A DNA stretch of 55,293 nucleotides. It comes from an uncultured Propionibacterium sp. GTDB lineage: Bacteria > Actinomycetota > Actinomycetes > Propionibacteriales > Propionibacteriaceae. Position 1 is the first letter of the stretch; each line of letters begins with the position of its first letter. Under the pieces are notes generated by a model. It did not search any database and was not told the DNA's origin. It was given only the letters and a program-made list of their open reading frames with translations. Positions 26,927-54,242 of this stretch are shown in pieces. The stretch lies in NCBI GenBank assembly GCA_937867175.1, contig CALMKG010000553.1, forward strand, positions 1 through 55,293, given 5' to 3'. The position numbers were made by a program, and so were the translations under genes.

Positions 26927-26927
26927 G

Positions 26928-33656: not shown

Positions 33657-33793
33657 TTCTGACCTCCTGATCGACAGTCGGCCAACGTTACGGGAGCGGT
33701 CCGACAAACGTGCTGCGAGCATGCCCCTCAGCAACACCAATCTTCCCAGTTAGTGTCCGCGAGCGTCCCGATGTTGCGGTGGATGTCGGTGGC

Positions 33794-35484: not shown

Positions 35485-38400
35485 TCACTCGAGGACTGGG
35501 CCATCCGCCGCCACTCCGCTCCTGCCCCGGTCGCCAGCCTCCGCGGCGATGTCGGCGGCCCTGCGAATTGCCCTACGCGCCCGCGCCTCGTCGATCCGTT
35601 GGCGGTCGGAGTCGCCGGCCGGGCCGACTGGCTTGTCGCTATCGACCTGCCATAGGTCGCGGTAGGCGGCGACCACTCGAACCTCCTGCACCCAGAGGTC
35701 ACGCTGCCGAGAGTCGACCGGTGGTGCGCCGAGTCGGCGGACCCAAGCCGCGCGCCCGGCGACAGCCACTTCGGCGAGCGCGGTCGCCCGTGACTCGAGC
35801 AGGTCCTGACGCTCGATAAGGGCTCGACGCATCCTGTTCGACATCGGCCCGTCCGCGACCGGGACGAGGCCGGCGATCAGGCTCGGCCGGCGTCGAGCGC
35901 CGTTTCCACGGCCCGAGGTGGCGTGGCGGACGCGGCTGATGAGGACGGCGCCGATGTCCTGGGCGTCGGCGAACCCACGCTGAGCGACCACCTGGGGCAG
36001 CACAACGGAGATGTCGACGCCACTCGACTCGGCGCGGCGAAGCTCGGCGGCGAGCGGCCCGAACGACTCCGACCCGATCACGTCGTCGATCTGCTCGGCC
36101 GACAGGCCCGCTGCCGAGAGCTCGCCAACCCAACGGTCGCGTTGGGCGACCGCTGCGATGGTGAGATACTCCCCCACGATCTGCTTGAAGGAGGACCAGT
36201 GCTCCTGCTCCTCCTTGATCGTCTGGTGGGCGGAGAGCTCGACGCCGGAATGCTGGAGCACCCCGAACAGGATCGTCTTCGCGGTGACCTCTTCGGGCGA
36301 CGGCGCAGCGTGAGAATCGTCCGGTCGGTCGAGGGCGACGTACGCGAGGTTGGACTCGCGCCCCCGCGTCATTGCGACGTAGAAGTTCTCCCGGGTGGTT
36401 GAACCGGTCACGACGACATGCGCGGTGTCGACCGTCATCCCCTGTGCGCGGTGGGCGGTGATGGCGTAGCCGAGGTCGACGTGCTCGGCGACGTAGTCGG
36501 CCGGTAGCACAACAGAGCCGCCCAACCTCATTCCGAGCCGATGGACCACGACCGACCCGTCGTCGTTAACGTCGGTGACGCGCCAGCGGTCACCGTTCTT
36601 GACCCAACCTCCGCGCAGCGCGTGGATGCGGCGGTGGTTCTGCCGAGTGATGACCAGGTCGCCGACGGACGCACGGGTGCCGTCCCGGAGTCCGACCTCA
36701 CGGCTGGGCAGGGTCTCGCCGTCCCTGAGCCGCTCGGCGCGGGCGCGCTCGTTCAGTTCGACCATCGCGTCCGTCGACTCGGTGACGAGCAGACTGCTGC
36801 GACCGGCCCTCAGGTCGGCACGCCAGCACCGGTACGCGGCGTCGACCATCTCGACGTGGGTGCCGTCCTTGACCCGCTGGTGGCGAAAGTAGGCGCTGAT
36901 GACCTTGGTGCGTCCCAGGCGGAGGTCGACCGAGGCGTCCTTCTCCCACTTGTTGACGAAACGGTGGACCTCGGTCAGCTCCGGGGTGTCGTCTCGCGCC
37001 TCGGCCAACAGGGGGAAGGCTCCGCCCGCGTCGACCGATTGAAGTTGCGCCCAGTCACCGACGAGCAGCACCTTGGCTCCCGCGTCGGCGGCGAAGCCAG
37101 TGAGCCGGTCGAGGGTAAGGGTTCCGGCGAGGGTCGCCTCGTCGATGATGACGAGCTGACCTTTCCTGAAGGTGGCTCGCCCGCTGTCGTGCTCGTGGAG
37201 CCATTTCGCCGTGTTGTCGCAGGCAACGCCGAGGTCCTGGGCGAGGACGTCGGCTGCGGCGGCCGACGGGGCGAGCCCGACCACGCTGTCCTTGCCGTGG
37301 ACACTCGTCCAAGCGGCGTGGAGCGCACGCATGGCTGTCGTCTTGCCCGCTCCGGCCGGGCCGATGAGAAGGTCGACCTGTCGCCCGGACACCGCGATCG
37401 ACGTGAGGGTCGCGACCTGTTCGTCGGTGAGCAGGTGTCCCAGCACCTCGTTCTCCGAGACGGCCTCGATGACCTCCAGATCGACCACGGGCGAGCTTCG
37501 GTTCACGCCACGGGCGAGTAGTCGATCCTCGGCCGCGAGGATCTCGTCGGACGTGAAGGTGACCGAGTGCTTGGGGCGGAACAGGCTCGTGCCGTCGTTG
37601 CGTCTGAAGACGCCCGGGCTGTAGGCAAGCGCTGGCGGCGTGAGAGAGATCGAGATGCGCTTGGCCTCCTCCACGATTCGGCCAACCACCTGCTCCCGGT
37701 CCGCGACGGTGGCGAAGCGCCACTCCATCGTCTGCCGGGATGCCTCGGCCCAGAGGTTCCAGTGCTTCCAGGTCGATCGCTTCTGGCTGACCGCGCCGAC
37801 GGTGGCTCGGGCCACCTCGGTGATCGCCATGGCCGACACGTCACCCGCGCGCAGCAGACCACGCGCGAGTTCGACCGAGTCGCCCCGGGCACCACGGGCG
37901 AGTAGCGCCCGCGCCCATCTCGTCGCGTCGCCGCCGAGAACCCGGTTGGCCCGCGTCCGCCAGCTCTCGGTGAGTTCAGCGAGCGAGTGAACGTGCTTCT
38001 CGGGCCGGGTGGTGAGCGTGGCGGTGGCGCGAAGCTTGATGACCGCGGCGGCGTCAGGTGCTCGCCCGTGGTCGCGCTCGTACTGCTCGATCAGCCGATT
38101 CTTCTCGATCTCGATCGCCCTGGAACGGTTGGAGAACTCCGCCACCAGCTCCTCGCCGACCCCGGCAATCTCGAAAGCGGGGTTGCGGTTCGCGCCCCGC
38201 TCACGCATCTCCCACTCGACCCCGAACGAGCGGCGAAGGATGTCGGCGAGCACGGCGTTGTAGTGCTCGGACAGTGCGACGACAGAGGCGAACATCGGCC
38301 GACTGTCGAGGGACCGCCACCGGCCGTCGAAGAGGGTGCGGACCTTGTTCGAGACGACGACGTGCGTGTGCAACTGCGGGTCCCCGGCACGGGAGTCCCA

Positions 38401-39042
38401 GTGGTCGTACGCCGTCGCTGCCACGCCGACGACGTCATGGTGCGCGGATGCTCCGTCGCGGGCGTTCGCGCCGGCCCGGGTGACGGCGACCTCCCGCTCC
38501 AGCATCGCGAGCACTTCGGCGATGGCCTGGTGGTGCGCGTCGACGATCAGCGCCTGGCTACCAGCGTCAGCGACGCCCCACAGGACCGACACTGACTTCG
38601 GGACGCTGAACGTGTAGTCGAAGCCTGCGGTCGCGGTTTGCGACCCCTTCGCCATCTCCTCGGCCTCGATCTCGTCCAGGAATTGGGCGCGTTCCTCGTC
38701 GGACAGGTGCGGGTTGAGACTGACGGTTCGTTCGTCCACTCGCTGCTTGAGGGTGGCGAACCGCTGGAATGCCGACCCGAGCTGCTCGCCCGTGATCGGG
38801 TCTCGCCCCTGCCCGATGAGGAGCACCAACTGCGGCTCGGACACCGTGCTGCCGACGGTGAGCTGGCCGGAGCCGAACTCGGTGACTCCCGAGCCCATCC
38901 AGACACCGGGCGGAGTGCCTGCCTCGGCGTAGTAACGGGTCAGCGGAGTCGACAGGCTCCGGTTGCCGTCACCGGAGACCACGCTCCGGAGCAGGTACTT
39001 GTAGCCCTCGCCCGCCGACATCTTGCGCATGGACACGGTCAT
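35485..39042 (-). CDS. MobF-family relaxase/helicase (TrwC/TraI type)
   Basis: 1185 aa. The start ATG 39042 has GAGGAGG 10 bases upstream; the frame is open further but without support. The N-terminal TrwC relaxase domain carries the metal-binding HTHVVVSNK (about 223, with DPQLHTH) and N-terminal tyrosines (GYKYLLR, RYYAEAG) that can attack oriT. The C-terminal part is a RecD-like superfamily 1 helicase: GPAGAGKTTAMRAL (about 560), VIIDEATLA, and the ending ITAHRAQGMTVDTAHV with YVAMTRGR. It nicks and unwinds the element for transfer. Complete for the family. It contains four copies of the 11-bp backbone motif in different reading frames. Confidence 0.93.
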   Translation of the reverse strand: MTVSMRKMSAGEGYKYLLRSVVSGDGNRSLSTPLTRYYAEAGTPPGVWMGSGVTEFGSGQLTVGSTVSEPQLVLLIGQGRDPITGEQLGSAFQRFATLKQRVDERTVSLNPHLSDEERAQFLDEIEAEEMAKGSQTATAGFDYTFSVPKSVSVLWGVADAGSQALIVDAHHQAIAEVLAMLEREVAVTRAGANARDGASAHHDVVGVAATAYDHWDSRAGDPQLHTHVVVSNKVRTLFDGRWRSLDSRPMFASVVALSEHYNAVLADILRRSFGVEWEMRERGANRNPAFEIAGVGEELVAEFSNRSRAIEIEKNRLIEQYERDHGRAPDAAAVIKLRATATLTTRPEKHVHSLAELTESWRTRANRVLGGDATRWARALLARGARGDSVELARGLLRAGDVSAMAITEVARATVGAVSQKRSTWKHWNLWAEASRQTMEWRFATVADREQVVGRIVEEAKRISISLTPPALAYSPGVFRRNDGTSLFRPKHSVTFTSDEILAAEDRLLARGVNRSSPVVDLEVIEAVSENEVLGHLLTDEQVATLTSIAVSGRQVDLLIGPAGAGKTTAMRALHAAWTSVHGKDSVVGLAPSAAAADVLAQDLGVACDNTAKWLHEHDSGRATFRKGQLVIIDEATLAGTLTLDRLTGFAADAGAKVLLVGDWAQLQSVDAGGAFPLLAEARDDTPELTEVHRFVNKWEKDASVDLRLGRTKVISAYFRHQRVKDGTHVEMVDAAYRCWRADLRAGRSSLLVTESTDAMVELNERARAERLRDGETLPSREVGLRDGTRASVGDLVITRQNHRRIHALRGGWVKNGDRWRVTDVNDDGSVVVHRLGMRLGGSVVLPADYVAEHVDLGYAITAHRAQGMTVDTAHVVVTGSTTRENFYVAMTRGRESNLAYVALDRPDDSHAAPSPEEVTAKTILFGVLQHSGVELSAHQTIKEEQEHWSSFKQIVGEYLTIAAVAQRDRWVGELSAAGLSAEQIDDVIGSESFGPLAAELRRAESSGVDISVVLPQVVAQRGFADAQDIGAVLISRVRHATSGRGNGARRRPSLIAGLVPVADGPMSNRMRRALIERQDLLESRATALAEVAVAGRAAWVRRLGAPPVDSRQRDLWVQEVRVVAAYRDLWQVDSDKPVGPAGDSDRQRIDEARARRAIRRAADIAAEAGDRGRSGVAADGPVLE
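37485..37518 (-). repeat. Backbone motif pair, 12-bp gap
   Basis: Two copies of CCACGGGCGAG (37485-37495 and 37508-37518), separated by 12 bases, inside the relaxase gene. The two copies lie in different reading frames (LLARG and SSPVV), so protein constraint does not explain them. Confidence 0.7.
37892..37902 (-). repeat. Backbone motif, single copy
   Basis: Exact CCACGGGCGAG in the relaxase gene; a one-mismatch copy is at 37859-37869. Confidence 0.6.
38061..38071 (+). repeat. Backbone motif, single copy, opposite orientation
   Basis: Exact CTCGCCCGTGG on the plus strand of the relaxase gene. Confidence 0.6.
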
Positions 39043-39350
39043 CACCGCACACCTCCTCGGCGTGCAGGTGTGCAGCAGGTTCCACAGCCCGACTTCGCGA
39101 CGGTTCATCCACCGACCGCCCACGGAAGCCCCCTCACGGTGCCAGACGTGTGGACGCTGAAGGAGGCGGTGGCCCGGGAGGACGGGAGGCGGCGGGCACC
39201 TGGTGAACGGAGAGGACCTACGCGGCGGGAAGGAGGAAGGTGAGGATGAGCGACGGTTGCGCATTCCGGTCAGGCAGTGACTCAATAGGACAGGACGGTG
39301 CTGACACGGTTCGCCGGCGGTGTCGTCTACGCCGTTCGCGGGAGACCGCG
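39043..39350. other. Divergent region; candidate oriT
   Basis: 308 bases between the relaxase and the lipoprotein gene, which point away from each other. It includes the inverted repeat at 39047-39073 and purine-rich stretches (39161-39245). MobF relaxases usually act at an oriT close to their own gene, so this is the best oriT candidate in the window; no nick site can be assigned by eye. Confidence 0.4.
39047..39073. promoter_or_regulatory. Inverted repeat over the relaxase ribosome site
   Basis: GCACACCT and AGGTGTGC form a perfect 8-bp inverted repeat with 11 bases between. The relaxase Shine-Dalgarno (GAGGAGG on the minus strand) lies in the loop and one arm, so a hairpin or a bound repressor would block translation. 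Confidence 0.5.
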
Positions 39351-39971
39351 ATGGAAGTCGGGAACTCGGGCATGACGATATTTCGAGGGGTAAGCGCACT
39401 CGCGGCAGCAGCAATGGTGATGGCCGCTCTGACGTCGTGCACCGACGAGGGCCAAGACCCAGCGGCGAGTGGGACCCCCTCCCCCAGCTCGCCGGCCCCG
39501 GCAACAAGCTCATCGACGCCGCCGTCCGATAGCGAGATCGCCTCCGAGGCGGCGTCCGCGGTCGTGTGGAAGTACTTCAAGACGGTGGACCTCGTCCGGC
39601 AGGACTCGAACCGGCCCGCGTCCGAACTGAAAGCCGTTGCGGCGAGCTCGCAACTCACCGCTCAGAAGAACCTGCTGAAGAGCCAACGCCAGGCGGACCG
39701 CCGCCAGGTCGGTGAGACCAAGCTGGTTGAGGTCAAGGTCGAGTCCGTCAGCCTAGACGAGCCGGCAACGGCCTACGTCGACGTCTGCTGGGACGTCAGT
39801 GATGTCGACATCGTCGATGGTGATGGGAAGTCGGTCGTGACACCGGACCGCAAGGACGTGGGCTGGACCCGCTTCACCGTCACCAACGCGACGTGGGAGA
39901 CGGCACCTTCCGATGGTTGGCGGGTGTCTGGCGGATCAGATCTGGAGAAAGAGCCGTGCGTCGGCTCCTGA
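39351..39971 (+). CDS. Lipoprotein of the transfer/pilus region
   Basis: 206 aa from ATG 39351, with GGGAGA just upstream; ATG 39372 is an alternative. A signal peptide ends in the lipobox LTSC (Cys about 30), so the protein is exported and lipid-anchored. A Ser/Pro/Thr linker follows, then a folded domain with SAVVWKYFKTVDLVRQDSNR and ATAYVDVCWDVSDV, like the NTF2-like lipoproteins often encoded at the start of actinobacterial Tad or conjugation operons. It overlaps the next gene by 16 bases. Confidence 0.75.
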   Translation: MEVGNSGMTIFRGVSALAAAAMVMAALTSCTDEGQDPAASGTPSPSSPAPATSSSTPPSDSEIASEAASAVVWKYFKTVDLVRQDSNRPASELKAVAASSQLTAQKNLLKSQRQADRRQVGETKLVEVKVESVSLDEPATAYVDVCWDVSDVDIVDGDGKSVVTPDRKDVGWTRFTVTNATWETAPSDGWRVSGGSDLEKEPCVGS

Positions 39972-40915
39972 CCCTGGCGCTCACGATTGCAGCCCTCGCT
40001 GGCGGGCTGGTTGGGCTCATGTCGTTGGCGGCGCACGGCGACACCGTCTGCGGGCAGACCGACCCGGCGACCGGCGAGTGTCTGATCTGGATCGAGGTGC
40101 CCGGCAACCCCGGCGACCCGGGCGAGCCCGGTGACGACGGGCCGAAGGACACCGGTTCCGGCGCGGCCTGCTACTGGGACGGCACCGATCAGGGCATCAC
40201 CAAACCTCCGCCTGGGCCAGTCCCCTGCAGTTCCCAATTCGGCTACTGGTCCAACGGCTACCGCTGCTACATCCAGCTCCTGGACCCACAACCAGCGGCG
40301 GGCGATCCGAGTTGGCAGGGCCACGAACCCGACGATGGTGCCGTCTATCAGTGCTACCAGCCACAGACCGACCTGCTCGTTCTCGTCTGGTCGGCTGACC
40401 CCCCACCCGACTCCGGCACTGGACCGACGCCCCGGGAGGTGGCACAGCTCGCCATCGCCGACATGCGGCTCACGGCGATCAACATCGGCATTGCACCGAA
40501 GGCCGAGGACGGCAGCGTCGGGATCGTCGGGATGCCTGTCTGGATGTGGGTGGCGAACCCGAACGAGCACACCTGGGGACCGATCACGGCGTCGGCGAGC
40601 GCGGGCGGAGTCTCCGTCACTGCCACAGCTCAGGTCCACAAGGTCACCTGGGACATGGGTGACGGCAACCAGGTCACCTGCACAACCGCCGGGACGCCGT
40701 ACGAGGCGGCGTACGGCAACAAGAAGTCGCCCGACTGCGGCCACGTCTACATCACCTCCAGCTCGTCCGAGTCCGACCAGAAGTTCACGGTCACGGCGAC
40801 GTCGGACTGGGTCATCGACTGGGAGGGCGCAGGACAGACGGGAACCATCCGGCTGAACGGACTCGTCCGGGAGGCGCAGATCGCCATAGGAGAAGCGCAG
40901 GTGCTCGTGCAGTAA
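39956..40915 (+). CDS. Secreted Cys-containing protein of the Tad/transfer operon
   Basis: 319 aa from GTG 39956. A typical signal peptide (RRLLTLALTIAALAGGLVGL, cleavage after about AHG) is followed by a Gly/Pro/Asp-rich linker (GNPGDPGEPGDDG) and a domain with many Cys (CYWDGT, YRCYIQL, YQCYQPQ, QVTCTT, DCGHVY). This resembles secreted proteins misnamed ATP/GTP-binding proteins in Streptomyces elements. Extracellular role unknown; translation is coupled to the lipoprotein. Confidence 0.7.
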   Translation: MRRLLTLALTIAALAGGLVGLMSLAAHGDTVCGQTDPATGECLIWIEVPGNPGDPGEPGDDGPKDTGSGAACYWDGTDQGITKPPPGPVPCSSQFGYWSNGYRCYIQLLDPQPAAGDPSWQGHEPDDGAVYQCYQPQTDLLVLVWSADPPPDSGTGPTPREVAQLAIADMRLTAINIGIAPKAEDGSVGIVGMPVWMWVANPNEHTWGPITASASAGGVSVTATAQVHKVTWDMGDGNQVTCTTAGTPYEAAYGNKKSPDCGHVYITSSSSESDQKFTVTATSDWVIDWEGAGQTGTIRLNGLVREAQIAIGEAQVLVQ

Positions 40916-40932
40916 CGGGCGAAGGAGAGGCA

Positions 40933-41613
40933 GTGGGTATGAGCAAGACGGCCCCCCGGGACGACAGGACACTCGACCAGGCGTCGGGTCCCGCCGCGAG
41001 TCAGCTTGTGCCCCCGCCGAAGCTCCGACGGCGGCCGGCGCTCCTCGCTGCCGCACTCGTGGCGATCTGCGTCGGCGCCTTGCTCGCGGCGTGGGCCTGG
41101 ACGGCAACGACGAAGACGCAGGAGATCCTCGTCGCCCGGCACACGATCGAGCGGGGGGCAGTGATCGAGGCGGATGACCTCGCCCGGGTGCGAGTGAGCG
41201 CCGACCCGGCACTCACGCCGGTCTCGGCCAGCCAGTTCGACCAGATCGTCGGGCAGCGAGCGGCGTACGACGTGGCGGCGGGCGGGATGCTCACCCCCGA
41301 CTCATTCACCTCCGGTGTGGTTCCCGACGGGAGCAACTCCATTGTCGGCGTCGCACTCACCCCGGCCCGAGCGCCCGGGTTGAGTCTCACCACGGGCGAC
41401 CGAGTGAGGGCTGTGGTGACTCCGGCGCAGGGCGAGGAGTTGCCCGCGGGTGGGCCGCAGTTCAGCGAGGCGACAGTCGCAGGAGTCCACGTCTCTGAGG
41501 AGACGGGCGAGTTGATCGTCGACCTGCTGGTTCCTCACGCCGACGCCGCAGTCCTTGCCGCCCGTGCCGCCACCGGGAACGTCTCGCTCGTCCTGGACTC
41601 TCGGGAGCGCTGA
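40933..41613 (+). CDS. SAF-domain (CpaB/RcpC-like) pilus assembly protein
   Basis: 226 aa from GTG 40933, with GGAG 5 bases before it. One membrane helix (about residues 36-58) follows a Pro-rich cytoplasmic start. The SAF domain (ILVARHTIERGAVIEADDLA, about 66-130) is the module used by CpaB/RcpC in Tad pilus biogenesis. The C-terminal part is beta-rich. It overlaps the TadZ-like gene by one base (TGATG). Confidence 0.8.
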   Translation: MGMSKTAPRDDRTLDQASGPAASQLVPPPKLRRRPALLAAALVAICVGALLAAWAWTATTKTQEILVARHTIERGAVIEADDLARVRVSADPALTPVSASQFDQIVGQRAAYDVAAGGMLTPDSFTSGVVPDGSNSIVGVALTPARAPGLSLTTGDRVRAVVTPAQGEELPAGGPQFSEATVAGVHVSEETGELIVDLLVPHADAAVLAARAATGNVSLVLDSRER

Positions 41614-42380
41614 TGGCTGTCATCGCACTCACCTCCGCGTCCGGCTCACCCGGGGTCACCACGACCGCATTCGGCATGGCGCTCCTCTGGCCTCGGCCGG
41701 TCCTGCTCCTCGAGGCCGACCCCACCGGCGGGTCTGGTTTGCTCGCCGGCTACTTCCGAGGGACGCGAGAGTACGTCGGCGGGCTGATCGAGCTGGCGCT
41801 CACGTCGAGCAGCATCCACGACGGACTCGCCGAGGTGTCCGAACGCATCGACGGCACCACCGTTTCGTTCGTCGCCGGAACCCGGTCGCACACCCAGGCA
41901 GCCGCCTTGCGCGATCTCTGGCAGCCGCTCTCGGAGGAACTGGCCGACCTTGAGTCAACCGGCCAGGACGTGATCGTCGATGCCGGCCGGCTCGGACTCG
42001 TCGGCGCCCCGGAGCCGCTGCTCGCGAACGCCGACCTGACGCTCATCGTCACCCGCACCACCCTTCCCGCCATTTCGGCGGCGCGCTCCTGGGCCGACTC
42101 CGTCCAGCGCGGGGCGTTCGATTGGCAGCAGCCGGGAGTGCTCGTTGTCGGCGAGGGACAGCCGTACAGCTCCCGTGAAGTCGCCCGTGCGCTGAACTTG
42201 CCCGTGGTCGCCACCGTCCCCGACGACCCCGAGTCGGCGGCGGTGTTCTCGCGCGGTGCGCAGCCACCCAAGCGGTTCCAGGCAGGCGCACTCGCCCGTG
42301 GTCTCCATGCCGCCATCGCCTCGATCCACTCGACTGTCTCGCACCGTCGGGGCGAGCTGCTGGAAGGAGTTCGCCCGTGA
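41613..42380 (+). CDS. TadZ/CpaE-like ParA-family ATPase
   Basis: 255 aa. The N-terminus MAVIALTSASGSPGVTTTAF contains a deviant Walker A without the usual GKG lysine (GSPGVTTT), like TadZ proteins that bind ATP weakly and mark the pole. EADPTGGSG and IVDAGRLG follow as further nucleotide-site elements. It positions the pilus machine in the cell by family analogy. The end overlaps tadA. Confidence 0.75.
   Translation: MAVIALTSASGSPGVTTTAFGMALLWPRPVLLLEADPTGGSGLLAGYFRGTREYVGGLIELALTSSSIHDGLAEVSERIDGTTVSFVAGTRSHTQAAALRDLWQPLSEELADLESTGQDVIVDAGRLGLVGAPEPLLANADLTLIVTRTTLPAISAARSWADSVQRGAFDWQQPGVLVVGEGQPYSSREVARALNLPVVATVPDDPESAAVFSRGAQPPKRFQAGALARGLHAAIASIHSTVSHRRGELLEGVRP
42291..42301 (+). repeat. 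Backbone motif, single copy
   Basis: Exact CTCGCCCGTGG near the end of the TadZ-like gene; a one-base variant lies at 42370. Confidence 0.6.
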
Positions 42381-43852
42381 CCAGCGAGAGCATGGACGAC
42401 AAGCCCAGAGACCTGACTGCGCTGCCCCTGTTCGCCCAACCGGTCCCCGCGAGCGGACCACGGGCGAGTTCCATGCCACGTCCGGTCACATCTCTCCATC
42501 CGGCATCCGACTTGCCCGTGAACGACGTCGACTGGTCGCTCGTGGCAGCGCTGCGAGCACAGGCGTCCGAGCAACTCAGTCAGGCGGTCGCCGCGGATCG
42601 GGCGCGCCTCGACAAGGCAGCTCAAGAAGAGCTCGGCCGTTCGATCGTGCTCGACCTGATCGATGCGACGGTGTCGGATCGGGTGAACGCCGGTGACAGG
42701 GCGTGGTCGCTGGCCGAACAGAACGCACTCGCTCGGGCCGTCTTCGACTCACTTTTCCGGCTCGGCCGACTTCAGCCGCTCGTCGACAACGACGAGGTCG
42801 AGAACATCATCATCGCGGGCCACGACAACGTGCTGCTCGAACTGATCGACGGTTCCTTGGTGGAGGGGCCATCCGTGGCGGACTCCGACCAAGAACTGAT
42901 CGACTTCCTCGTCTTCCTAGCGTCCCGCTCGGAGGTCAACGCCCGCGGATTCTCCGAGGCGCAGCCCCGACTCCACCTCCGCCTCGACGGCGGCGCCCGA
43001 CTCGCGGCAGCGGCGTGGGTGACGCCCCGTCCATCGGTCGTAGTCCGACGGCACCGGCTGATGCAGGTCACTCTGGACGACCTGGTCGAGCGAGACATGC
43101 TCAGCCCAGTCGCGGCATCGTTCTTGCGGGCAGCGGTGAGAGCGCGCAAGAGCATTGTCATCGCCGGCAGCCAGGGCGCAGGCAAGACCACCCTCGTGAG
43201 GGCGCTGTGTGCGGAGATCGACCCGCTGGAGGCGATCGGCACCTTCGAGACGGAGTACGAGCTGCACCTCCATGAGCTGAAGCGCCACAAGATCGTGCAC
43301 CCATGGGAGGCACGCCCAGGGTCTGGTGAACGTGGTCCGGACGGTCGGATGGCCGGGGAGTTCACGCTTGACGACGCGCTCGTCGACTCGTTCCGCTTCA
43401 ACCTCTCCCGCCAGATCGTCGGCGAGGTCCGAGGCAAGGAGATCTGGGCGATGATCAAGGCGATGGAGTCCGGGACCGGGTCCATCTCCACGACCCACGC
43501 CTCGGACGCCGTCGCGGCGGTCCGGAAGCTGGTGACCTGTGCGATGGAAGCGGGGCCACACGTCACTCACGAGCTGGCGACGTCGAAGCTGGCAGCCACC
43601 ATCGACCTGATTGTCCAGCTCGACCTGCGAACCACGATGGCGAACGGCGTCTCCCACCGGCAACGCCGGATCGCCGAGATCATCGCCCTCGAACCTGGTG
43701 AGCGCGAGACCGGTTACGCCACCACCCACGTCTTCGCTCCCGACAGCGACGGCAGCGCCGTACCCTCCGTCCTTCCGCACGAGTACCGGGCACTCGCGTC
43801 GTACGGCTTCGATCTGGCGGGCTACCTGATGCTGCAGGCGACCCGGCCATGA
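42377..43852 (+). CDS. tadA: Tad/CpaF secretion ATPase
   Basis: 491 aa from GTG 42377, with GGAAGGA upstream. Walker A is GSQGAGKTTLVRAL (about 263-276). TEYELHLHEL and SRQIVGEVRGKEIWAMIKAM (Walker B/His-box area) with GSISTTHASD match the VirB11/CpaF/TadA family. It powers pilus polymerisation. Complete. It overlaps tadB by four bases (ATGA). Confidence 0.92.
   Translation: MTSESMDDKPRDLTALPLFAQPVPASGPRASSMPRPVTSLHPASDLPVNDVDWSLVAALRAQASEQLSQAVAADRARLDKAAQEELGRSIVLDLIDATVSDRVNAGDRAWSLAEQNALARAVFDSLFRLGRLQPLVDNDEVENIIIAGHDNVLLELIDGSLVEGPSVADSDQELIDFLVFLASRSEVNARGFSEAQPRLHLRLDGGARLAAAAWVTPRPSVVVRRHRLMQVTLDDLVERDMLSPVAASFLRAAVRARKSIVIAGSQGAGKTTLVRALCAEIDPLEAIGTFETEYELHLHELKRHKIVHPWEARPGSGERGPDGRMAGEFTLDDALVDSFRFNLSRQIVGEVRGKEIWAMIKAMESGTGSISTTHASDAVAAVRKLVTCAMEAGPHVTHELATSKLAATIDLIVQLDLRTTMANGVSHRQRRIAEIIALEPGERETGYATTHVFAPDSDGSAVPSVLPHEYRALASYGFDLAGYLMLQATRP
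42458..42468 (-). repeat. Backbone motif, single copy
   Basis: Exact CCACGGGCGAG in the 5' part of tadA. Confidence 0.6.
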
Positions 43853-44703
43853 TCGCGCTCGTCCCCGCTCTGGCCGGCGCACTGATCGTCGCGGGCGTCA
43901 TCGGCGTGATCGCCGGTCTGCGCCCGGCGCCGGTTCCGGAGAGACGCCCCCGCTCGCGACGGGTGCGGCGTCTTCAGAGTCTCGACCGCACGACCCGACG
44001 CCTCCTACTCGGCGGCCTTGGGGCAGGGGTGTTGGCGTGGCTCGTCACCGGCTGGGCGCTCGCCGTCATTGCTGTCCCTGTCGCGGCCGTCGGACTCCCG
44101 ATCCTCCTGTCGGCGGGCTCGGCCGCCTCCCGCATCCAGCGGCTCGAAGCGATGGAGGAATGGACCCGGTCCCTGTCGGGGGTGCTCACGGTGGGAGTCG
44201 GCCTGGAGCAGGCCCTAGTTGCCACCCTGCGATCCACCCCTGCTCCCATCACACCGGAGGTCACGCGCCTTGTCGCACGTCTTCGTGCCCGCTGGGTCAC
44301 GGAGGACGCGCTGCGTGCGTTTGCCGACGAGCTGGACGACTCCACCGGTGACCTCATCGCCGCGAACCTCATCCTCGGTGCTCGGCGCCGCGGCGCGGGC
44401 CTGTCCAACGTCCTCGAAGGGTTGGCCGAGTCGGTGGCGGCAGACGTCCGCGCTCGGCGTCAGGTGGAAGCGGACCGGGCCAAGCCCCGTGCGACCGCTC
44501 GGTGGGTCACGCTCATCAGCGCGGGAGTGCTCGTGATCCTGGCGGTCTCGGGCACCTACGTCGAGCCCTACAAGAGCCCCCTCGGCCAGGTGATCCTGAT
44601 CGCCCTTCTCGCGGCCTACGTCGCCACACTCGTCTGGATGAAGCGCATGGCGCAGGGCCGCAACCTGCCCCGATTCCTCGACGCCCAAGGCGGCACGGCA
44701 TGA
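43849..44703 (+). CDS. tadB: Tad inner-membrane platform protein TadB
   Basis: 284 aa. Membrane segments at the N-terminus and around residues 45-85 and 215-260 enclose the cytoplasmic type II secretion F domain (RLEAMEEWTRSLSGVLTVGV and VLEGLAESVAADVRARRQVE). It overlaps both neighbours, as in typical tad operons. Confidence 0.85.
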   Translation: MIALVPALAGALIVAGVIGVIAGLRPAPVPERRPRSRRVRRLQSLDRTTRRLLLGGLGAGVLAWLVTGWALAVIAVPVAAVGLPILLSAGSAASRIQRLEAMEEWTRSLSGVLTVGVGLEQALVATLRSTPAPITPEVTRLVARLRARWVTEDALRAFADELDDSTGDLIAANLILGARRRGAGLSNVLEGLAESVAADVRARRQVEADRAKPRATARWVTLISAGVLVILAVSGTYVEPYKSPLGQVILIALLAAYVATLVWMKRMAQGRNLPRFLDAQGGTA

Positions 44704-45605
44704 CCACCGGACTCCAACTCGCCCTCGCGTCAGGCGCGCTCGTCGCGCTCGGAGTCGTGCTCCTAGTTATGCGCCTGATGCCTGCGGAACCGGATCTCGC
44801 CGAGGCACTCAGCCGGCTGACACCCACTCGTGGGCGAGCACGCTCGCTCGAATCGCCTTCTGCCGCGACTGGCAAGGAGAGGATCGGCGTCTGGGCGATG
44901 AAGGCACTCCCACCTGCGTTGTGGGTGCGCACCCCGACCCGGGAACTCGCGATCCTCAGAATCCCGCTCGCCCGGTTCTACGGCGACAAGTTGACCTTCG
45001 CCGGGCTCGGCCTGGTCATCCCGCCACTCCTTGCGTGGTTCTTTGACCTCATCGGCCTGGGCTTCCCCGTCGCGATCCCGGCATTGGCGTCGCTCGGCCT
45101 GGCGGCCGTCATGTTCTTCATGCCCAACTACAACGCGGTCGACGACGCACGGAAGGCCCGGCTCGAGTTCTCCCGGGCTCTCGGGGCATACATCGACCTC
45201 GTCGCCTTGGAGCGCAACAACGGCTCCGGCGTGCGCCAGGCGATGGAGTTGGCGGCGGAGGTGGGCGACTCGTGGGTCTTCACGCGGCTATCCGAGGAGC
45301 TGACCCGATCCCGTTGGTCAGGGCTCCCGCCGTGGGACGCGCTGCACACCTTGGCCGAGGAGCTCGGGCTCCCCGAGCTCGACGACTTCGCCGACATCAT
45401 GCGGCTCTCCGGGGAGGAGGGAGCTTCGGTCTACGCCACACTCCGCGCCCGCTCAGCCGCGATGCGCACGGCGATGCTCAACGACGAGATCGCCGAAGCC
45501 AATGCCGTTGGCGAGCGAATGACGATCCCTGGCTCCCTGCTCGGCGTGATCTTCATGGCTCTGCTAGTCGCTCCGTCGCTGCTGCGGATGTTCAGCAACA
45601 CCTGA
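44700..45605 (+). CDS. tadC: Tad inner-membrane platform protein TadC
   Basis: 301 aa from ATG 44700. Membrane helices about 5-23, 100-140 and at the C-terminus; the F domain includes YIDLVALERNNGSGVRQAME and AMRTAMLNDEIAEANAVGER. It pairs with TadB. The Flp-like pilin gene follows after 45 bases. Confidence 0.85.
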   Translation: MTTGLQLALASGALVALGVVLLVMRLMPAEPDLAEALSRLTPTRGRARSLESPSAATGKERIGVWAMKALPPALWVRTPTRELAILRIPLARFYGDKLTFAGLGLVIPPLLAWFFDLIGLGFPVAIPALASLGLAAVMFFMPNYNAVDDARKARLEFSRALGAYIDLVALERNNGSGVRQAMELAAEVGDSWVFTRLSEELTRSRWSGLPPWDALHTLAEELGLPELDDFADIMRLSGEEGASVYATLRARSAAMRTAMLNDEIAEANAVGERMTIPGSLLGVIFMALLVAPSLLRMFSNT

Positions 45606-45650
45606 TCCCTGACCTCTGGAGGAAGACCACGAACAGGAAGGAACCCACCT

Positions 45651-45839
45651 ATGGAACGACTCATCCGAGCGCTGCTCGCGCTCACGTACGGACTGGAATC
45701 GCGACTGCTGCGCCGTGAGGAGCGCGGCTCGGTGACCACCGAGCACGTCCTCTGGGCGGTCGCAGTGATCGCGATCGTCGGGATCGTCGTCGCCGCGGTG
45801 AAGGCGTATGTCACTAGTCAGGCCGGGAACATCAAGTAG
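45651..45839 (+). CDS. Flp-like pilin
   Basis: 62 aa. The sequence RREERGSVTTEHVLWAVAVI with the hydrophobic IAIVGIVVAAVKAY has the pilin layout: a positively charged leader, a Gly/Glu pair near the cleavage point (E at +5 in TTEH), and one hydrophobic helix. AAGGAA precedes the ATG. This should be the major pilus subunit of the operon. Confidence 0.75.
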   Translation: MERLIRALLALTYGLESRLLRREERGSVTTEHVLWAVAVIAIVGIVVAAVKAYVTSQAGNIK

Positions 45840-46218
45840 CCGTCGGCAGGACGAACGTGGCTCGGCGACCGTCGAGCTGATGATCCTCCTGCCGGCACTC
45901 TTCGCCGTGATGTTCCTGGGCATGCAGGCGGCGCTATTCCATCACGCGCGGTCGGTGGCAATCGCTGCCGCGCAGGAAGGCGCCCGTGCTGCCGGAGGCG
46001 AGAACGGCAAGGAGTCCGACGGCGTGCAGGCGGCCGCTGCGTTCATCGAGGACGCCGGCGGCGACGACGTGCTGTCCGGAGCCACCACCACGGCCAACCG
46101 CACGACGACGACGGTGACCGTCGTCGTCCAAGGGCACTCGCTGAGCGTGATCCCGGGCTGGTCGCCCGTGGTTCGGCAAGTAGCGTCCGTGCCCGTGGAG
46201 AGGCTGACGACACCATGA
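45808..46218 (+). CDS. TadE-like pseudopilin 1
   Basis: 136 aa. The region RRQDERGSATVELMILLPAL with FAVMFLGMQAALF is the TadE-like start: a basic leader, ERGS-x-x-VE, then a hydrophobic helix. It overlaps the pilin gene by 32 bases. The C-terminus is exported. Confidence 0.8.
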   Translation: MSLVRPGTSSSRRQDERGSATVELMILLPALFAVMFLGMQAALFHHARSVAIAAAQEGARAAGGENGKESDGVQAAAAFIEDAGGDDVLSGATTTANRTTTTVTVVVQGHSLSVIPGWSPVVRQVASVPVERLTTP

Positions 46219-46649
46219 CTCGCTCGAGTTCGCGCGACGAACGCGGATCGGCCTCCGTTGAGGCCGCCGTCGGCGTGCCCGCGTTCGTGCTGTTCGTCGG
46301 GCTGATCATCTTCGGCGGCCGGACAGCGACGACCTACCAGTCCGTGGAGACCGCCGCGGCCTACGCCGCCCGTGCAGCCTCAATCGAGCGCACAGCAGGC
46401 TCGGCGAAGGCGAATGCCATCTCTGCGGCGACCACAAGCCTGTCGAACCAGGGTGTCCACTGCCTCGACGTGGACGTCACGGTCGATGCAAGCCAGTTCA
46501 GCCGCACCGTGGGCGAGACGGCGACCGTCTCCGTGACGGTTCACTGCCGCCTGGACCTTTCAGACCTGTCGGTCCCGGGAGTGCCCGGAAGCCGCCTGAT
46601 CGAAGCGACGATGACCAGCCCGATCGACACCTGGAGGGAGCGCGGATGA
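46215..46649 (+). CDS. TadE-like pseudopilin 2
   Basis: 144 aa. It begins RDERGSASVEAAVGVPAFVL and has one hydrophobic helix; the rest is a small extracellular domain. Overlaps neighbours by four bases on each side. Confidence 0.8.
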   Translation: MTRSSSRDERGSASVEAAVGVPAFVLFVGLIIFGGRTATTYQSVETAAAYAARAASIERTAGSAKANAISAATTSLSNQGVHCLDVDVTVDASQFSRTVGETATVSVTVHCRLDLSDLSVPGVPGSRLIEATMTSPIDTWRERG

Positions 46650-47071
46650 TGCGGCGAGCTCGCGACGAACGCGGCTCAATCTCGATCTGGATGGTGACCG
46701 CCAGCTTCGTGATGATGGTCCTCGTCGGCCTCGCCGTCGACCTCGGCGGCCAGGTCCACGCCAAGCAGCGCGCCCACAATATCGCCGCCGAAGCCGCCCG
46801 CACCGGAGGTGAGCAGGTGGAGGCCGCTCCCGCTATCGAGGGCCGCTACGTCAACGTTGACACCGCCGCCGCACGAACGGCGGCCCAGCAGTACCTCGCC
46901 GCCGCGGGCGTCGGCGGGGCGGTGACGGTAACCGGCGGCGACACCATCCACGTCGAGGTGACCGACACCTACAGGCCCAAGTTCTTGGGCTTCATCGGCA
47001 TCGGCAACCTCACCGTCACATCCGAAGCCTCCGCCCGCATCGTCCGCAGTCTGGGAGGGACCGAACAGTGA
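46646..47071 (+). CDS. TadG-like pseudopilin
   Basis: 141 aa. DERGSISIWMVTASFVMMVL with GLAVDLGGQVHAKQRAHNIA matches the Flp pilus-assembly TadG N-terminus (a helix then A-x-x-A-A). Shorter than full TadG, lacking a von Willebrand domain. Confidence 0.8.
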   Translation: MMRRARDERGSISIWMVTASFVMMVLVGLAVDLGGQVHAKQRAHNIAAEAARTGGEQVEAAPAIEGRYVNVDTAAARTAAQQYLAAAGVGGAVTVTGGDTIHVEVTDTYRPKFLGFIGIGNLTVTSEASARIVRSLGGTEQ

Positions 47072-50000
47072 CCGCACGTACTCGTCTCGCTGGGCTGGGC
47101 GCGACCCTGCTCATCCTCCTGCTCGTCACCGGCACGCCTCTGCTGCTTGTCGCGATCGGCGCAACCCCGTGGCACGAGAACCTCGGCAATCTCGGAACAC
47201 TCCTCACCAGCCCGGACGACGGCACCCTGGCGCTGTTCGTCATCGGGGCCGTGGCGTGGATCGCCTGGGCGATCATGGTGGTCTCGTTCGGCGTGGAGAT
47301 CCTTGCCGCGGTCCGCGGCGTGCCCGCTCCGCGACTCCCGGGCCTCGCGCTCCCGCAGGGCCTCGCCAGCCAGCTGGTCACGGTTGCGGCTCTCCTCTTC
47401 GCCGTGGCGCCGAGCGTAGTGCCCGTGTTCGCCCCACAGCCGGCCCAAGCCGCGCCGGCGGCCGAAGCGCCACGGCTCATCAGCCTGCCGGAGACCTTGC
47501 CGCTGCTGCCCGTCGAGGCGGCCCCGCCCACGGTGACGACGTCGGATTCCGAGACACCCACGGTCGAGTACACGGTGCGTCGAGGCGACAGCCTGTGGAA
47601 GATCGCCGAGGAAAACCTCGGCGACGGGATGCGGTATCGAGAGATCGTCGTCCTCAACCACGACGTACTCCCCGCGAATCCTGACTTCATTGACCCCGGG
47701 TTGGTTCTTCGGCTGCCGAGCGATGGGGAGTCGGCGATCGAGAAGACCGAGGAACCACGGCCCAAGGAGACGTACGTCGTCGAGCCCGGCGACACCTTGT
47801 GGGACATCGCGGAGGACAATCTTGGCGAGGGCGAGCGCTACCCCGAGGTCTTCGAGGCTTCACGAGACACCGTGCAGCCGGACGAACAGCACCTCACCGA
47901 CCCTGACCTGATCCGGCCGGGCTGGGAGCTCACAATCCCCGGGACAGACGACGACTCGCCCGTGGTCGAGCCACCAGTGATCGCGCACCCGCCCGTGGCG
48001 CCTAGCGGCAAGCACCTCGAACCCGATCCGGTCGAGAAGACTCCGCCGGTCGAGAGGCCGGACGCGTCGACGCCCACCGCAGAGCCGAGCGACTCACCCG
48101 TGACGGATGAGCCCGACGCGACCGACGACGAGGACGCCTCGGCCTCTTGGCTGCTTCCCGGACTGTTGGGTGCGGGGACGCTTCTGGCTGGCTCGATCCT
48201 CGTCGCCGTGCGCGCGCATAGGCGAACCCAGCAGCGCTATCGCCGACCGGGGTTCACCATCTCCCCGCCGCCGCCCGAGGTCCGCGCGGTCGAGAGGACG
48301 GCCGCCGTCGCCGGCGCTCCCGTGGCCGACGTGATCGACCAGCTCGACCGACTCCTCCGCCACCTGGCAGCGACGACGGACGAGGCGCCGCAGCTCGACC
48401 TCGTCGAGGTCGGCAAGCAGACGGTCACGCTCCATCTCGCTGAGTCGGCCGAACTGCCTGAGCCATGGGTCGGCTCTGAGGGCAAGTGGTCCGCGAACCT
48501 CGACGCAGCCGTCGGCGACGAGGACGTCCTCCCGCCTTACCCGCTGTTGGCAAGCGTCGGGCAGGGCGAGGACGGACACCTCTGGCTGCTCAACCTTGAG
48601 CAACTCGGGACAATCGCGCTCACGGGCGACCTGGACCGTGCCACGGCGCTGGCCCGCCACCTCGCCGCGGAACTGGCGCTGAGCCCGTGGGCAGTCGTCT
48701 CGCAAGTCGACGCGATGGGCCTCGCCACCGAACTGGCAGCGCTCGACGTGCTGCGGCTCCGCTGCCACCCCGGTGACGACACCGAGTTCCTCGGCCGACT
48801 ACAGCGCGACGTCACCCAGGCACTGAACAACGGCCACGGCGATCCGGAACCGTTCCGCGCCCTGCTCGTCTCCAGCCCTCGGACGGACCAGGTACGCGCG
48901 CTCGCCGGCCTCGTCCACCACCAGACTTCACGGTCGGGCCTCGCGGTCGTCGTCCTCGGCGACGCCGAGCATGGCGACGCGGTGGTCGAGCTGACCAGAG
49001 ACGGCCGACTTCGCATCCCCCACCTCAGCCTCGACTTGGCCACGGCGGGCCTGTCCGCGGGAGAGGCGTCAGCCACCGCGGCCATCGTCGACCTGACTCG
49101 CGAGGCGACGGTGGTGCCGATGCCCCGGGAGGAGGGAGCCCACGGCTGGCGCGCCTTGGCGGACCAGGCGGGCGCGCTCGTCCCCGACCTGACCGAGGCC
49201 CGACCACACGGCGAGGCGGGGGCCACCTCGCTCCTACCGGAGGCAACGCAGCGATACGAGGCCGTGGCACCCACGACCCCCGAGGACGTCGAGACACTGG
49301 CGCCGGTTGTTCCAGAGAAGTCCCGCCGCGTGGTCGAAGAGACGGACCCCAGCCTCGACGACGACCTGGCGCAGTGGCATGACCCGACGAGCGCACTGCC
49401 CAAGCTGCAGCTCCTCGGGCCGGTGACCGTGTTCGCTCAGGGAGAGCCGCCGACGGCTGTCACCGAACGACGCGCGTACTTCAACGAGCTGGTCACGTTC
49501 CTTGCGCTTCACCCCTCAGGCGTCTCGTCGCGTCAGGTCCGGGACTCCTTCGGGATGACTCAGTCACGAGCTCGGACCGACCTCGGGTACATCAGGACAT
49601 GGTTCGGCACCAACCCGCGAACCAACGAACCTCACCTCCCGCCCGCGACGACCTCGCCCGCTCACAAGGACCGAGGCGCGAGCGGGTACCAGTTGAACGA
49701 CGTCCTGGTCGACCTCGACCTGTTCCGGCGGTTGCGCGCCCGGGCGCAGGCTCGCGGGGCCGAGGGCATTGAGGATCTCGTGGCCGCGCTGCAACTGGTC
49801 ACGGGAGAGCCGTTCAGCGCGTTGCGCAACCCCGGCTGGACCTGGATGCTTGACGACGAGCGTGTCCACGAGACCGCGACGTTCGCCGTGGTCGACGTGG
49901 CCCACCTCGTCGCCACCGACGCCTTCTCGCGTGGCGATCTGGAGCGGGCGAAGTTCGCTGCAGAGACCGGTTGCATGGCCGCGCCGTACGACGAGGTCTG

Positions 50001-50184
50001 CCGCCTCGACCTGGCGAAGGTCGCGGAGGCTGAAGGGCACGACACACTCGCGGAGCAGATCCTCGACGAGCACGTCTTCAATCGGACCGACGACCACCTG
50101 CCCCCGATAGACCTCCCCGAACGCACCAAGACGGTCGTCAAGAACAACGGCTGGGGCGATCCGAAGCGGCCTCGCAAGGGCTGA
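47068..50184 (+). CDS. Membrane protein with two LysM domains and a C-terminal BTAD regulator domain
   Basis: 1038 aa. The N-terminus has two to three membrane helices (about 10-30, 52-75, 105-122). LysM1 is at about 165-212 (YTVRRGDSLWKIAEENLGDG) and LysM2 at about 234-285 (YVVEPGDTLWDIAEDNLGEG), facing the cell wall. A further helix (358-380) leads to a large cytoplasmic part. Near 776-870 a winged-HTH-like unit (LLGPVTVFAQGEP ... RAYFNELVTFLALHPSGVSS) leads into a BTAD domain (about 880-1010). This looks like a regulator that senses the wall and acts on DNA. It is the last gene of the tad operon. Confidence 0.8.
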   Translation: MTARTRLAGLGATLLILLLVTGTPLLLVAIGATPWHENLGNLGTLLTSPDDGTLALFVIGAVAWIAWAIMVVSFGVEILAAVRGVPAPRLPGLALPQGLASQLVTVAALLFAVAPSVVPVFAPQPAQAAPAAEAPRLISLPETLPLLPVEAAPPTVTTSDSETPTVEYTVRRGDSLWKIAEENLGDGMRYREIVVLNHDVLPANPDFIDPGLVLRLPSDGESAIEKTEEPRPKETYVVEPGDTLWDIAEDNLGEGERYPEVFEASRDTVQPDEQHLTDPDLIRPGWELTIPGTDDDSPVVEPPVIAHPPVAPSGKHLEPDPVEKTPPVERPDASTPTAEPSDSPVTDEPDATDDEDASASWLLPGLLGAGTLLAGSILVAVRAHRRTQQRYRRPGFTISPPPPEVRAVERTAAVAGAPVADVIDQLDRLLRHLAATTDEAPQLDLVEVGKQTVTLHLAESAELPEPWVGSEGKWSANLDAAVGDEDVLPPYPLLASVGQGEDGHLWLLNLEQLGTIALTGDLDRATALARHLAAELALSPWAVVSQVDAMGLATELAALDVLRLRCHPGDDTEFLGRLQRDVTQALNNGHGDPEPFRALLVSSPRTDQVRALAGLVHHQTSRSGLAVVVLGDAEHGDAVVELTRDGRLRIPHLSLDLATAGLSAGEASATAAIVDLTREATVVPMPREEGAHGWRALADQAGALVPDLTEARPHGEAGATSLLPEATQRYEAVAPTTPEDVETLAPVVPEKSRRVVEETDPSLDDDLAQWHDPTSALPKLQLLGPVTVFAQGEPPTAVTERRAYFNELVTFLALHPSGVSSRQVRDSFGMTQSRARTDLGYIRTWFGTNPRTNEPHLPPATTSPAHKDRGASGYQLNDVLVDLDLFRRLRARAQARGAEGIEDLVAALQLVTGEPFSALRNPGWTWMLDDERVHETATFAVVDVAHLVATDAFSRGDLERAKFAAETGCMAAPYDEVCRLDLAKVAEAEGHDTLAEQILDEHVFNRTDDHLPPIDLPERTKTVVKNNGWGDPKRPRKG
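47955..47965 (+). repeat. Backbone motif, single copy
   Basis: Exact CTCGCCCGTGG in the LysM-BTAD gene, with a near copy at 47988. Confidence 0.6.
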
Positions 50185-50256
50185 GCGGGAGTCTCGCCGA
50201 AGTCTCTCCTGAGCCACAACGGGCTCGGCTGACCTGCGGAAACGTCCCTTCGGAGA

Positions 50257-50290
50257 CTCGCCCGTGGTCCGTTTGGCTACTCGCCCGTGG
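50257..50290 (+). promoter_or_regulatory. Backbone motif pair in the PrimPol promoter region
   Basis: CTCGCCCGTGG at 50257-50267 and 50280-50290, again 12 bases apart, in the only non-coding gap of this stretch. The second copy ends 37 bases before the PrimPol ATG. The position fits an operator or a binding site for a replication or partition protein. Confidence 0.7.
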
Positions 50291-50327
50291 GCGAAATTTG
50301 GTGCCCCGCTCGGCGCAATGTCGAGGC

Positions 50328-51227
50328 ATGAACAACTCGGCACAAATGCAGTCCCGGACTTCGCGGTGGAATCCGCGGCTGCCCGTCTCCTTGTCCGATG
50401 CACAGGACCTCGCCACCGCTTCCACGATGCTCGCCTCCCGCAACATCCCCGTCTTCCCCTGCACGCCCGGCGGCAAGCAGCCGCTGACCACCCACGGTTT
50501 CCACGACGCCAGCACCGACCTCGCGACGGTGAGCAGCTGGTGGCAACGCTGGCCCGACGCCAACATTGGGATGCCGACGGGGGCGGCGTCAGGGGTCGAC
50601 GTCGTCGACATCGACGTCCACGTCGGCGGCAAAGGCTTCGCCGCATTCGAGCGGGCACGGTCGGCCGGGCTCGCGGATGGGTGGGCGTGGCTGGTCCGAA
50701 CGCCATCGGGCGGCGTCCACGCCTACTACCTCCGTGGCCTTGTCGACGAGCAGCGGTCCTGGCAGGTGCCCGGTCAGCACGTCGACTTCCGGGGAGACGG
50801 CGGCTACATCATTGCTCCGCCGTCGCGGGTCGACGGTCGGCCGTACGAGCTGATCACCGTCGCCCAACACAGGGCCACCCCCGTTGATGCCGCTGCTCTC
50901 CGCTCGTTCCTCGAACCGCCGCGGCCGAATCGACCGCCGACCTCGATGCCCGCGATCGGGTCTCGCCCCGACAAGCTGGCTGACTGGGTTGCTTCACGAC
51001 CCGAAGGGGCACGCAACCATGGGCTGTTCTGGGCGGCCTGCCGGATGGTCGAGGAGGGGCACCCCTTCGACTCGACCGCCAACCTCCTCGGCGACTCAGC
51101 TCGCTCGGCCGGGCTCTCCGACCAGGAGGCCATGACGACGATCCGATCGGCGTACCGGATCGCTTCGCGTCTGGGGACGGCCGACATCGTCCGCCCTACG
51201 AACGCGGCTGAGGCGGTGTCGCTATGA
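50328..51227 (+). CDS. PrimPol (bifunctional DNA primase/polymerase) replication protein
   Basis: 299 aa from ATG 50328. VFPCTPGGKQPLTTHGFHDA, then WWQRWPDANIGMPTGAASG, VVDIDVH (catalytic Asp pair, about 91-95), RTPSGGVHAYYL and VDFRGDGGYIIAPPS are the standard AEP primase-polymerase motifs. There is no helicase domain. Such proteins start replication of actinobacterial integrative elements and plasmids. The promoter region contains the paired 11-bp motif. It overlaps the next gene by four bases. Confidence 0.88.
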   Translation: MNNSAQMQSRTSRWNPRLPVSLSDAQDLATASTMLASRNIPVFPCTPGGKQPLTTHGFHDASTDLATVSSWWQRWPDANIGMPTGAASGVDVVDIDVHVGGKGFAAFERARSAGLADGWAWLVRTPSGGVHAYYLRGLVDEQRSWQVPGQHVDFRGDGGYIIAPPSRVDGRPYELITVAQHRATPVDAAALRSFLEPPRPNRPPTSMPAIGSRPDKLADWVASRPEGARNHGLFWAACRMVEEGHPFDSTANLLGDSARSAGLSDQEAMTTIRSAYRIASRLGTADIVRPTNAAEAVSL

Positions 51228-51595
51228 ACAACAACGACCACTACGAGCGGCGCGAGGACCGGGTCATGCCCGAGCAGGCGATACCCCAGCCGCAGACCGA
51301 CGACACCGTCAACGCACTCGTGTTGCACCGGGACCCGTCCGTTCCGGTCGCCAAGCCGGTGGCCGCGCGACCAGCTCAGCGCGGGATCGCCTGGGTGCGT
51401 CCCAGCGAACTGCCGACGCTCGTCGGCTCGAGATGGACCAACCGTGGCATCGACCTCCAGTCCGAGTTGGTTCGTCGCTCGCGGCGTGCGCCGGTCAAGG
51501 CAGCGAAAGCCGGGCGACGGATCAGCCGAACCGCCATCGCCCGTCCAGGGCCGGTGACCCCGTCGGTGACCTCGACCGAGGAGCTGGGGCTATGA
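51224..51595 (+). CDS. Basic unstructured protein of the replication operon
   Basis: 123 aa. Mostly disordered; the C-terminal half is Arg/Lys-rich (SRWTNRGIDLQSELVRRSRR), so nucleic-acid binding is plausible. It is coupled to both neighbours by overlapping start/stop codons. Conserved position in this backbone is likely, but no family name can be given. Confidence 0.6.
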   Translation: MNNNDHYERREDRVMPEQAIPQPQTDDTVNALVLHRDPSVPVAKPVAARPAQRGIAWVRPSELPTLVGSRWTNRGIDLQSELVRRSRRAPVKAAKAGRRISRTAIARPGPVTPSVTSTEELGL

Positions 51596-53503: not shown

Positions 53504-53558
53504 CGGAGCATCCGGCACACCTGCCTGCTACCCGTGACCGAAGCTTCCGAGGTGCAGC

Positions 53559-54239: not shown

Positions 54240-54242
54240 GCG

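Follow-up and report, generated by a model that had tools for sequence, protein, structure and literature searches.

Lineage-specific short repeats upstream of Prim-Pol and within the transfer genes of actinobacterial conjugative elements are candidate operators of an element-encoded regulator

A contig of 55,293 nucleotides from an uncultured Propionibacterium sp. (CALMKG010000553.1, assembly GCA_937867175.1; the whole stretch is referred to here as the window) carries part of a conjugative element with a MobF relaxase, a Tad-type pilus and a Prim-Pol gene, and the backbone of this element is strewn with a short repeat, CTCGCCCGTGG. Related elements hold copies of a short repeat at the same place, upstream of Prim-Pol, in a sequence that differs from lineage to lineage, and in some lineages further copies are spread over the transfer genes. 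On the basis of these comparisons we propose, with about an even chance of being right, that the repeat provides the binding sites of an element-encoded regulator, which would autoregulate the Prim-Pol operon, silence the transfer genes and drift together with its sites. A small search of the open-access literature returned no paper on this repeat.

Nine exact copies of CTCGCCCGTGG lie in 13 kb of backbone and nowhere else in the window, at the very coordinates given in the original prediction, which had also seen no copy in the cargo half (Table 1). Its estimate that chance would yield well under one copy agrees with dinucleotide shuffles (n=100), in which the 11-mer occurs 0.19 times on average and at most twice. 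With one mismatch allowed, 20 copies are found against 4.6 expected, and 17 of these 20 are located at 37-55 kb. The core of the motif is shorter than 11 bp: TCGCCCGTG, the top-enriched 9-mer of the backbone, is present 17 times in the window, always within 35784-54484. Both pairs of exact copies share a 12-base gap and hence a start-to-start spacing of 23 bp, and the copies in the relaxase gene fall in differing frames and in both orientations, again as predicted. Codon use had been dismissed as an explanation; indeed, 1000 synonymous-codon shuffles of the backbone genes yield 0.29 coding copies on average and never more than 3, against the seven observed. Nor is the density equal across the genome, since 9 of the 15 copies in 4.31 Mb (607 contigs) belong to the window, and three of the remaining six are found on contig C294, the carrier of a second TrwC relaxase. 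Genomes and plasmids related to this genome point to the family Microbacteriaceae.

Scanning an alignment of the CpaF-like ATPase against 84,980 genomes yielded 80 loci, mostly from Nocardioides, of which about 30 have Prim-Pol at the same place within reach. These elements, about 30 in number and syntenic in their MobF relaxase, Tad-type pilus and Prim-Pol genes, reside in Nocardioides, Aeromicrobium and other hosts, and five further partial elements were detected in the window's own genome (C457, C379, C304, C376 and C294). Nearly all such loci have a short repeat in the gap before Prim-Pol, in two to six direct or inverted copies, and its sequence is specific to the lineage. In the window this is the intergenic pair between the LysM gene and Prim-Pol, the second copy of which makes an inverted repeat, TCGCCCGTGGGCGA. 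Six types were assigned by eye from tables of repeats: type A, CTCGCCCGTGG (the window, L046, L047, L050); type B, CGCCCGTCC (L069, L077, L084, L088, L090, C457); type C, CGCCCCTCC (C379, L060, L061); type D, GGATACCTG (C376, L062, L079); type E, GCGTTCCCC (L049, L057, L063, L067, L068, L073 and others, with L057, L058 and L071 as weaker examples); and type F, GTACCCC (C304, L070, L072, L074). Locus L114 has the layout of type F, as in L070, L072 and C304, but its copies read GGGGGAACG instead of GGGGGTACG, which by sequence amounts to a coherent change across a set of sites.

Cross-counting over all elements revealed that the scattered types are nearly orthogonal: TCGCCCGTG occurs 7-17 times per type-A element and 0-4 times in others, and CGCCCGTCC occurs 7-27 times in type B and in L060 and L061, with no more than two copies in types A, D, E and F. 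Two independent Nocardioides genomes show such an enrichment as well. Of the 36 genomic copies in Nocardioides sp. PD653-B2 (L047), 13 fall in a single 13-kb segment of the element, and of the 27 in N. pocheonensis 16 fall in two regions. For type B, 8 of 11 copies of GCGCCCGTCCT in the L088 genome are on the element contig (C122), with less enrichment in the genomes of L090, L084 and L077.

In types A, B and C the repeat is additionally spread over the relaxase, Tad and LysM genes in both orientations, with up to 27 copies of CGCCCGTCC in 21 kb in L090 and 11 type-C copies in L051, where Prim-Pol is out of reach. Neighbouring copies are often 21-25 bp apart. The transfer genes carry 0.80 copies per kb, the genes for Prim-Pol, o123 and ParB only 0.04 per kb (p=2e-6); the repeat avoids the genes of the Prim-Pol operon and has its constant location upstream of them. 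We measured how often a motif 9-mer of one element is kept at the corresponding base in an alignment with a related element, relative to all G+C-matched 9-mers of the same genes. Retention amounted to 7/14 versus 14% from L047 to the window (p=0.0014), 11/15 versus 15.5% from L088 to L090 (p=9e-7) and 5/7 versus 7% from L069 to L060 (p=2.5e-5), in element pairs that are not all independent; it was not significant in some distant pairs (2/13 from the window to L050, 2/22 from L090 to L060). Computationally, the scattered sites thus show selective retention, well above background. At four relaxase positions (columns 563.2-, 581.2+, 592.2+ and 1285.2-) the A motif of a type-A element and the B motif of a type-B element occupy the same base on the same strand. 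The flanks of type B lack a dyad (2.01 arm matches versus 2.20 expected), and that of type A is weak (2.76 versus 1.86, chiefly from two positions); the sites are largely asymmetric.

Table 1. Repeat copies, backbone genes and cargo genes in the window
Feature	Positions	Strand	Remarks
MobF/TrwC relaxase-helicase	35485-39513	-	PF08751, E=3.8e-87; NF041492
Exact pair	37485-37495, 37508-37518	-	Inside relaxase gene; same 23-bp pair in L047
One-mismatch copy (37859) and exact copy (37892)	37859-37902	-	Relaxase gene
Exact copy	38061-38071	+	Relaxase gene, opposite orientation; orthologous copy in L047 (column 525.1-)
Tad-type pilus operon	41613-50184	+	o255, T2SSE, two T2SSF, two TadE, Tad, large LysM protein
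Exact copy	42291-42301	+	o255 gene; codon position common to all four type-A elements (226.2+)
Exact copy	42458-42468	-	T2SSE (CpaF/TadA-like) ATPase gene; position kept in L046 and L047 (31.2-)
Exact copy	47955-47965	+	LysM-protein gene; position kept in L046 and L047 (310.1+)
Conserved core TGACCTGCGGAAAC (TGACCTGCRNAAAC)	50230-50243	+	Beside motif copies upstream of Prim-Pol
Exact pair, primary site	50257-50267, 50280-50290	+	Intergenic, upstream of Prim-Pol
Prim-Pol	50298-51227	+	PF09250, E=1.5e-33; likely start ATG at 50329
o123	51224-51595	+	Small protein; kept in operon (conservation)
o308	51592-52518	+	Sigma-region-2-like N-domain; helical C-terminal domain with helix-turn-helix; leading candidate motif reader
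ParB-family protein	52511-53503	+	CTPase-type N-domain; KorB/Noc/Spo0J relatives; second candidate reader
Hma defence system, complete	23564-33740		Cargo half
HmaA	30246-33740
HmaB	26928-29765
HmaC	23564-26926
Cargo region	11746-17945
SIR2-like protein	11746-13590
GmrSD-type restriction endonuclease	16236-17945

The original prediction had named three candidates: a ParB-type site, a transfer recognition repeat and an operator recognized by a regulator of the element. Agreement is best for the operator, because the sites lie upstream of Prim-Pol in nearly all typed elements, are kept by selection and vary with the lineage. In the mechanism that we consider, a DNA-binding regulator of the element, most likely a product of the Prim-Pol operon, either o308 or the ParB-like protein, would recognize the 9-12 bp repeat. 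Its binding upstream of Prim-Pol would autoregulate the replication and maintenance operon, and the protein bound to copies inside the relaxase and Tad operons, acting as a roadblock or by spreading, would hold the transfer genes silent in a resident element, much as stoperators do in mycobacteriophages and KorB operators in RK2. The reader would drift together with its sites, so that each lineage would have its own tag; such a tag may let an element tell itself from co-resident relatives, with the differences between types limiting cross-talk. Types A, B, C, D and F occur side by side in the window's genome bin, and N. jensenii has type B beside the L114 type. This coexistence of differing types in one host is only suggestive because N. 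pocheonensis harbours two type-A elements and the bin is reported to be 7.8% contaminated. The same bin also includes other Prim-Pol elements, C158, C306 and C475, without the repeat.

The constant location of the repeat upstream of the Prim-Pol operon suggests this operon as the source of its reader. We slightly favour o308 over the ParB-like protein: o308 comes close to an even chance of being the reader, some other protein is possible, and the ParB-like protein is a more doubtful choice. The latter is a true member of the ParB family, with a TIGR00180 match at E=2e-11 that falls below the curated cut-off of the model, a PDB sequence match to ParB/Spo0J at E=3e-10 and Foldseek matches to ParB, Noc and KorB, including the KorB structure 8qa9. 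A relative of its gene was found in 19/19 genomes searched. Beyond backbone distance, the distance between motifs covaries with that between full-length ParB proteins (partial r 0.45) and between o308 proteins (0.41), with partial r below 0 for o255 and T2SSF1. However, the ParB recognition helix changes little or not at all between related elements with differing motifs (L114 versus C304, L072 and L070; L062 of type D versus L057 of type E), and its distance is uncorrelated with that of the motif (partial r -0.01); for the helix-turn-helix of o308 the value is 0.19 (p=0.025). Residue 219 of o308 was considered as a specificity residue and rejected; it is serine in E, E2, part of C and L062, but free within B. 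The o308 model has a mean predicted local distance difference test score (pLDDT) of 73. The best twenty matches of its N-domain are all sigma-factor region 2 (Z from 8.8 to 5.6; next 4.4), scores that lie below the safe level for a helical match, and no convincing fold match was obtained for its C-domain. Searches with o308 gave no Pfam or NCBIfam match, no PDB sequence match and no matching phage protein, and a relative in only one plasmid record. Taken from its model, o308, a conserved protein of 308 amino acids, is an unannotated candidate DNA-binding protein with a sigma-like fold.

Several observations weigh against an autoregulating and silencing operator set. The orientation of the scattered copies is unbiased (67 sense, 52 antisense), unlike that of stoperators, and in types D, E and F the repeat is restricted to the vicinity of Prim-Pol, so that scattered sites are not needed family-wide. 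The 7-base core CGCCCGT shared by types A and B could alone explain some of their coincidences in the relaxase, which weakens that argument without removing it. With respect to the reader, LysM also covaries weakly with motif distance (0.27), o308 and ParB may covary with the motif simply because their genes are physically linked to the region upstream of the operon, and the helix-turn-helix of o308 varies within type B while the motif is constant.

The ParB-family protein raises the alternative of a distributed centromere, in which parS-like sites would load this protein for sliding along the backbone and partitioning of the circular form, with silencing as a secondary effect. Its genuine ParB-family N-domain with Spo0J, Noc and KorB as relatives, the relatives of its gene in all 19 genomes searched and the covariation of its full length with the motif agree with such a role. 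The near-identity of its recognition helix across differing motifs does not, and the missing dyad of type B and the weak one of type A contrast with the palindromic parS and KorB operators; with a real ParB protein in the operon, we regard the ParB-type site of the original prediction as doubtful. Iterons of iteron-controlled plasmids are direct repeats that are specific to the plasmid, lie next to a replication gene and are spaced by roughly two turns of the helix. If the repeat were of this kind, the upstream copies would bind an origin initiator, the scattered ones would titrate it or serve handcuffing and copy control, and the lineage types would be incompatibility groups. The 21-25 bp spacing of many neighbours, the repeat arms that flank the conserved core TGACCTGCRNAAAC, the presence of five motif types in elements of a single genome bin and the adjacent Prim-Pol, a gene type linked to replication in actinobacterial integrative and conjugative elements (ICEs; PMC3218068), all speak for it. 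Yet most A and B copies are dispersed kilobases away in transfer genes and on both strands instead of forming an origin array, nothing marks the site of the upstream copies as an origin, and only two copies of the window are at the presumed origin; we consider iterons unlikely.

A transfer-recognition repeat would bind or orient the DNA-transfer machinery, comparable to FtsK orienting sequences or the TraB repeats of Streptomyces plasmids. TraB is a double-strand translocase of the FtsK type. The concentration of copies in the transfer region is in favour of this idea. The clt/TraB repeats of Streptomyces plasmids and actinobacterial ICEs (PMC3218068) are likewise short, element-specific repeats of conjugative elements in actinobacteria. 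The window element, however, has a MobF relaxase, which implies single-strand transfer, and a Tad-like pilus; the copies show no orientation bias, their constant location is upstream of Prim-Pol and not at the relaxase, and no FtsK/TraB-type protein is present among the backbone open reading frames (ORFs) scanned, in a contig that ends inside the element and whose cargo ORFs were scanned in part. No finding links the repeat to DNA transfer as such, and we consider this one of the predicted candidates quite improbable. An artefact of composition or codon use, or a decayed protein repeat, might be suspected from the high G+C content of DNA and motif and from exact pairs in five IMG/VR contigs. 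The spacings of those pairs are mostly multiples of 3, and we read them as protein repeats; no T2SSE relatives were found in IMG/VR. The 23-bp spacing in the window is no multiple of 3, frames and strands differ, and near Prim-Pol the types whose motifs contain A+T (D, E and F) show the same behaviour. The dinucleotide shuffle, the genome count and the synonymous-codon control rule an artefact out, and its probability is negligible.

In its behaviour the repeat of the proposed operator set is closest to stoperators and KorB operators, by analogy. The stoperators of Cluster A mycobacteriophages (L5, Bxb1, TipsytheTRex) are asymmetric scattered sites whose motif drifts together with the repressor (PMC9283540, PMC6550527). 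Common to both systems are a short site without symmetry that is scattered over the element in as many as about 30 copies, a lineage-specific motif, a site upstream of the regulator itself (a proposed one here) and an actinobacterial host. Stoperators, in contrast, belong to phages and mostly have one orientation, whereas the sites described here belong to a conjugative element, are oriented 67:52 and are confined to backbone genes; moreover, no sequence relation of o308 to solved structures or phage proteins was found. KorB of RK2 is a ParB-family protein of a conjugative plasmid with several dispersed operators and silencing at a distance, and its operator, represented by TTTAGCGGCTAAA in the oligonucleotide of the cited study, is a palindrome (PMC11790492). 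The window repeat differs in being mainly asymmetric, dense inside genes and variable by type. We do not file it as a stoperator or as a parS/KorB site because tests for orientation bias and palindromy revealed neither.

Beside the repeat, the conserved core TGACCTGCGGAAAC is found once per element, on the + strand, in nearly all typed loci. One reading of its form TGACCTGCRNAAAC was that of an origin, or of an origin of transfer; it proved widespread in intergenic positions of many genomes (185 of 294 in the taxonomic order, with a reversed control near zero). Several of its occurrences are next to tRNA genes or att-like ends; it has no Rfam family near the gathering score and no match in the literature. 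The Microbacterium plasmid pYJNG (NZ_CP060403.1; L030-L032) encodes a CpaF-like ATPase with 77% identity and has no type-A scatter. It carries approximately 19 palindromic repeats around AGTGAATGTGACATTCAC between small genes of its accessory region, which look like the operator set of another regulator and were judged separate from the system described here. A single VirB4-type ATPase query from pYJNG had no match in the window's genome, and the other half of the element was not placed.

When a ParA partner was looked for, o255 turned out to be CpaE/Ssd-like and located in the Tad operon of an element that is incomplete in the contig. The ParB-family gene is followed by o226 and by the gene of an M23 peptidase that the end of the contig truncates. 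The cargo half includes a complete Hma defence system, a SIR2-like protein and a GmrSD-type restriction endonuclease (Table 1), a set of genes that resembles a defence island.

Dispersed coevolving operator sets are already known from phages as stoperators, and dispersed KorB operators from IncP plasmids. Here, six motif types occupy one homologous place in a large family of actinobacterial ICEs and plasmids, and the distinct tag of each lineage suggests a switch for self-recognition or gene silencing that is undescribed for such elements. Tentatively, and leaning on the model of o308, this protein may read a rapidly re-specified tag of 9-12 bp that is distributed over the transfer genes of the element itself, and related elements may coexist under different tags. 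If true, o308 and its tag would constitute an ICE counterpart of phage superinfection immunity. Since two motif types can share one codon position, the family provides a natural experiment on the joint change of regulator and site specificity, and the repeat offers a means of sorting elements into types from sequence alone and of predicting their coexistence.

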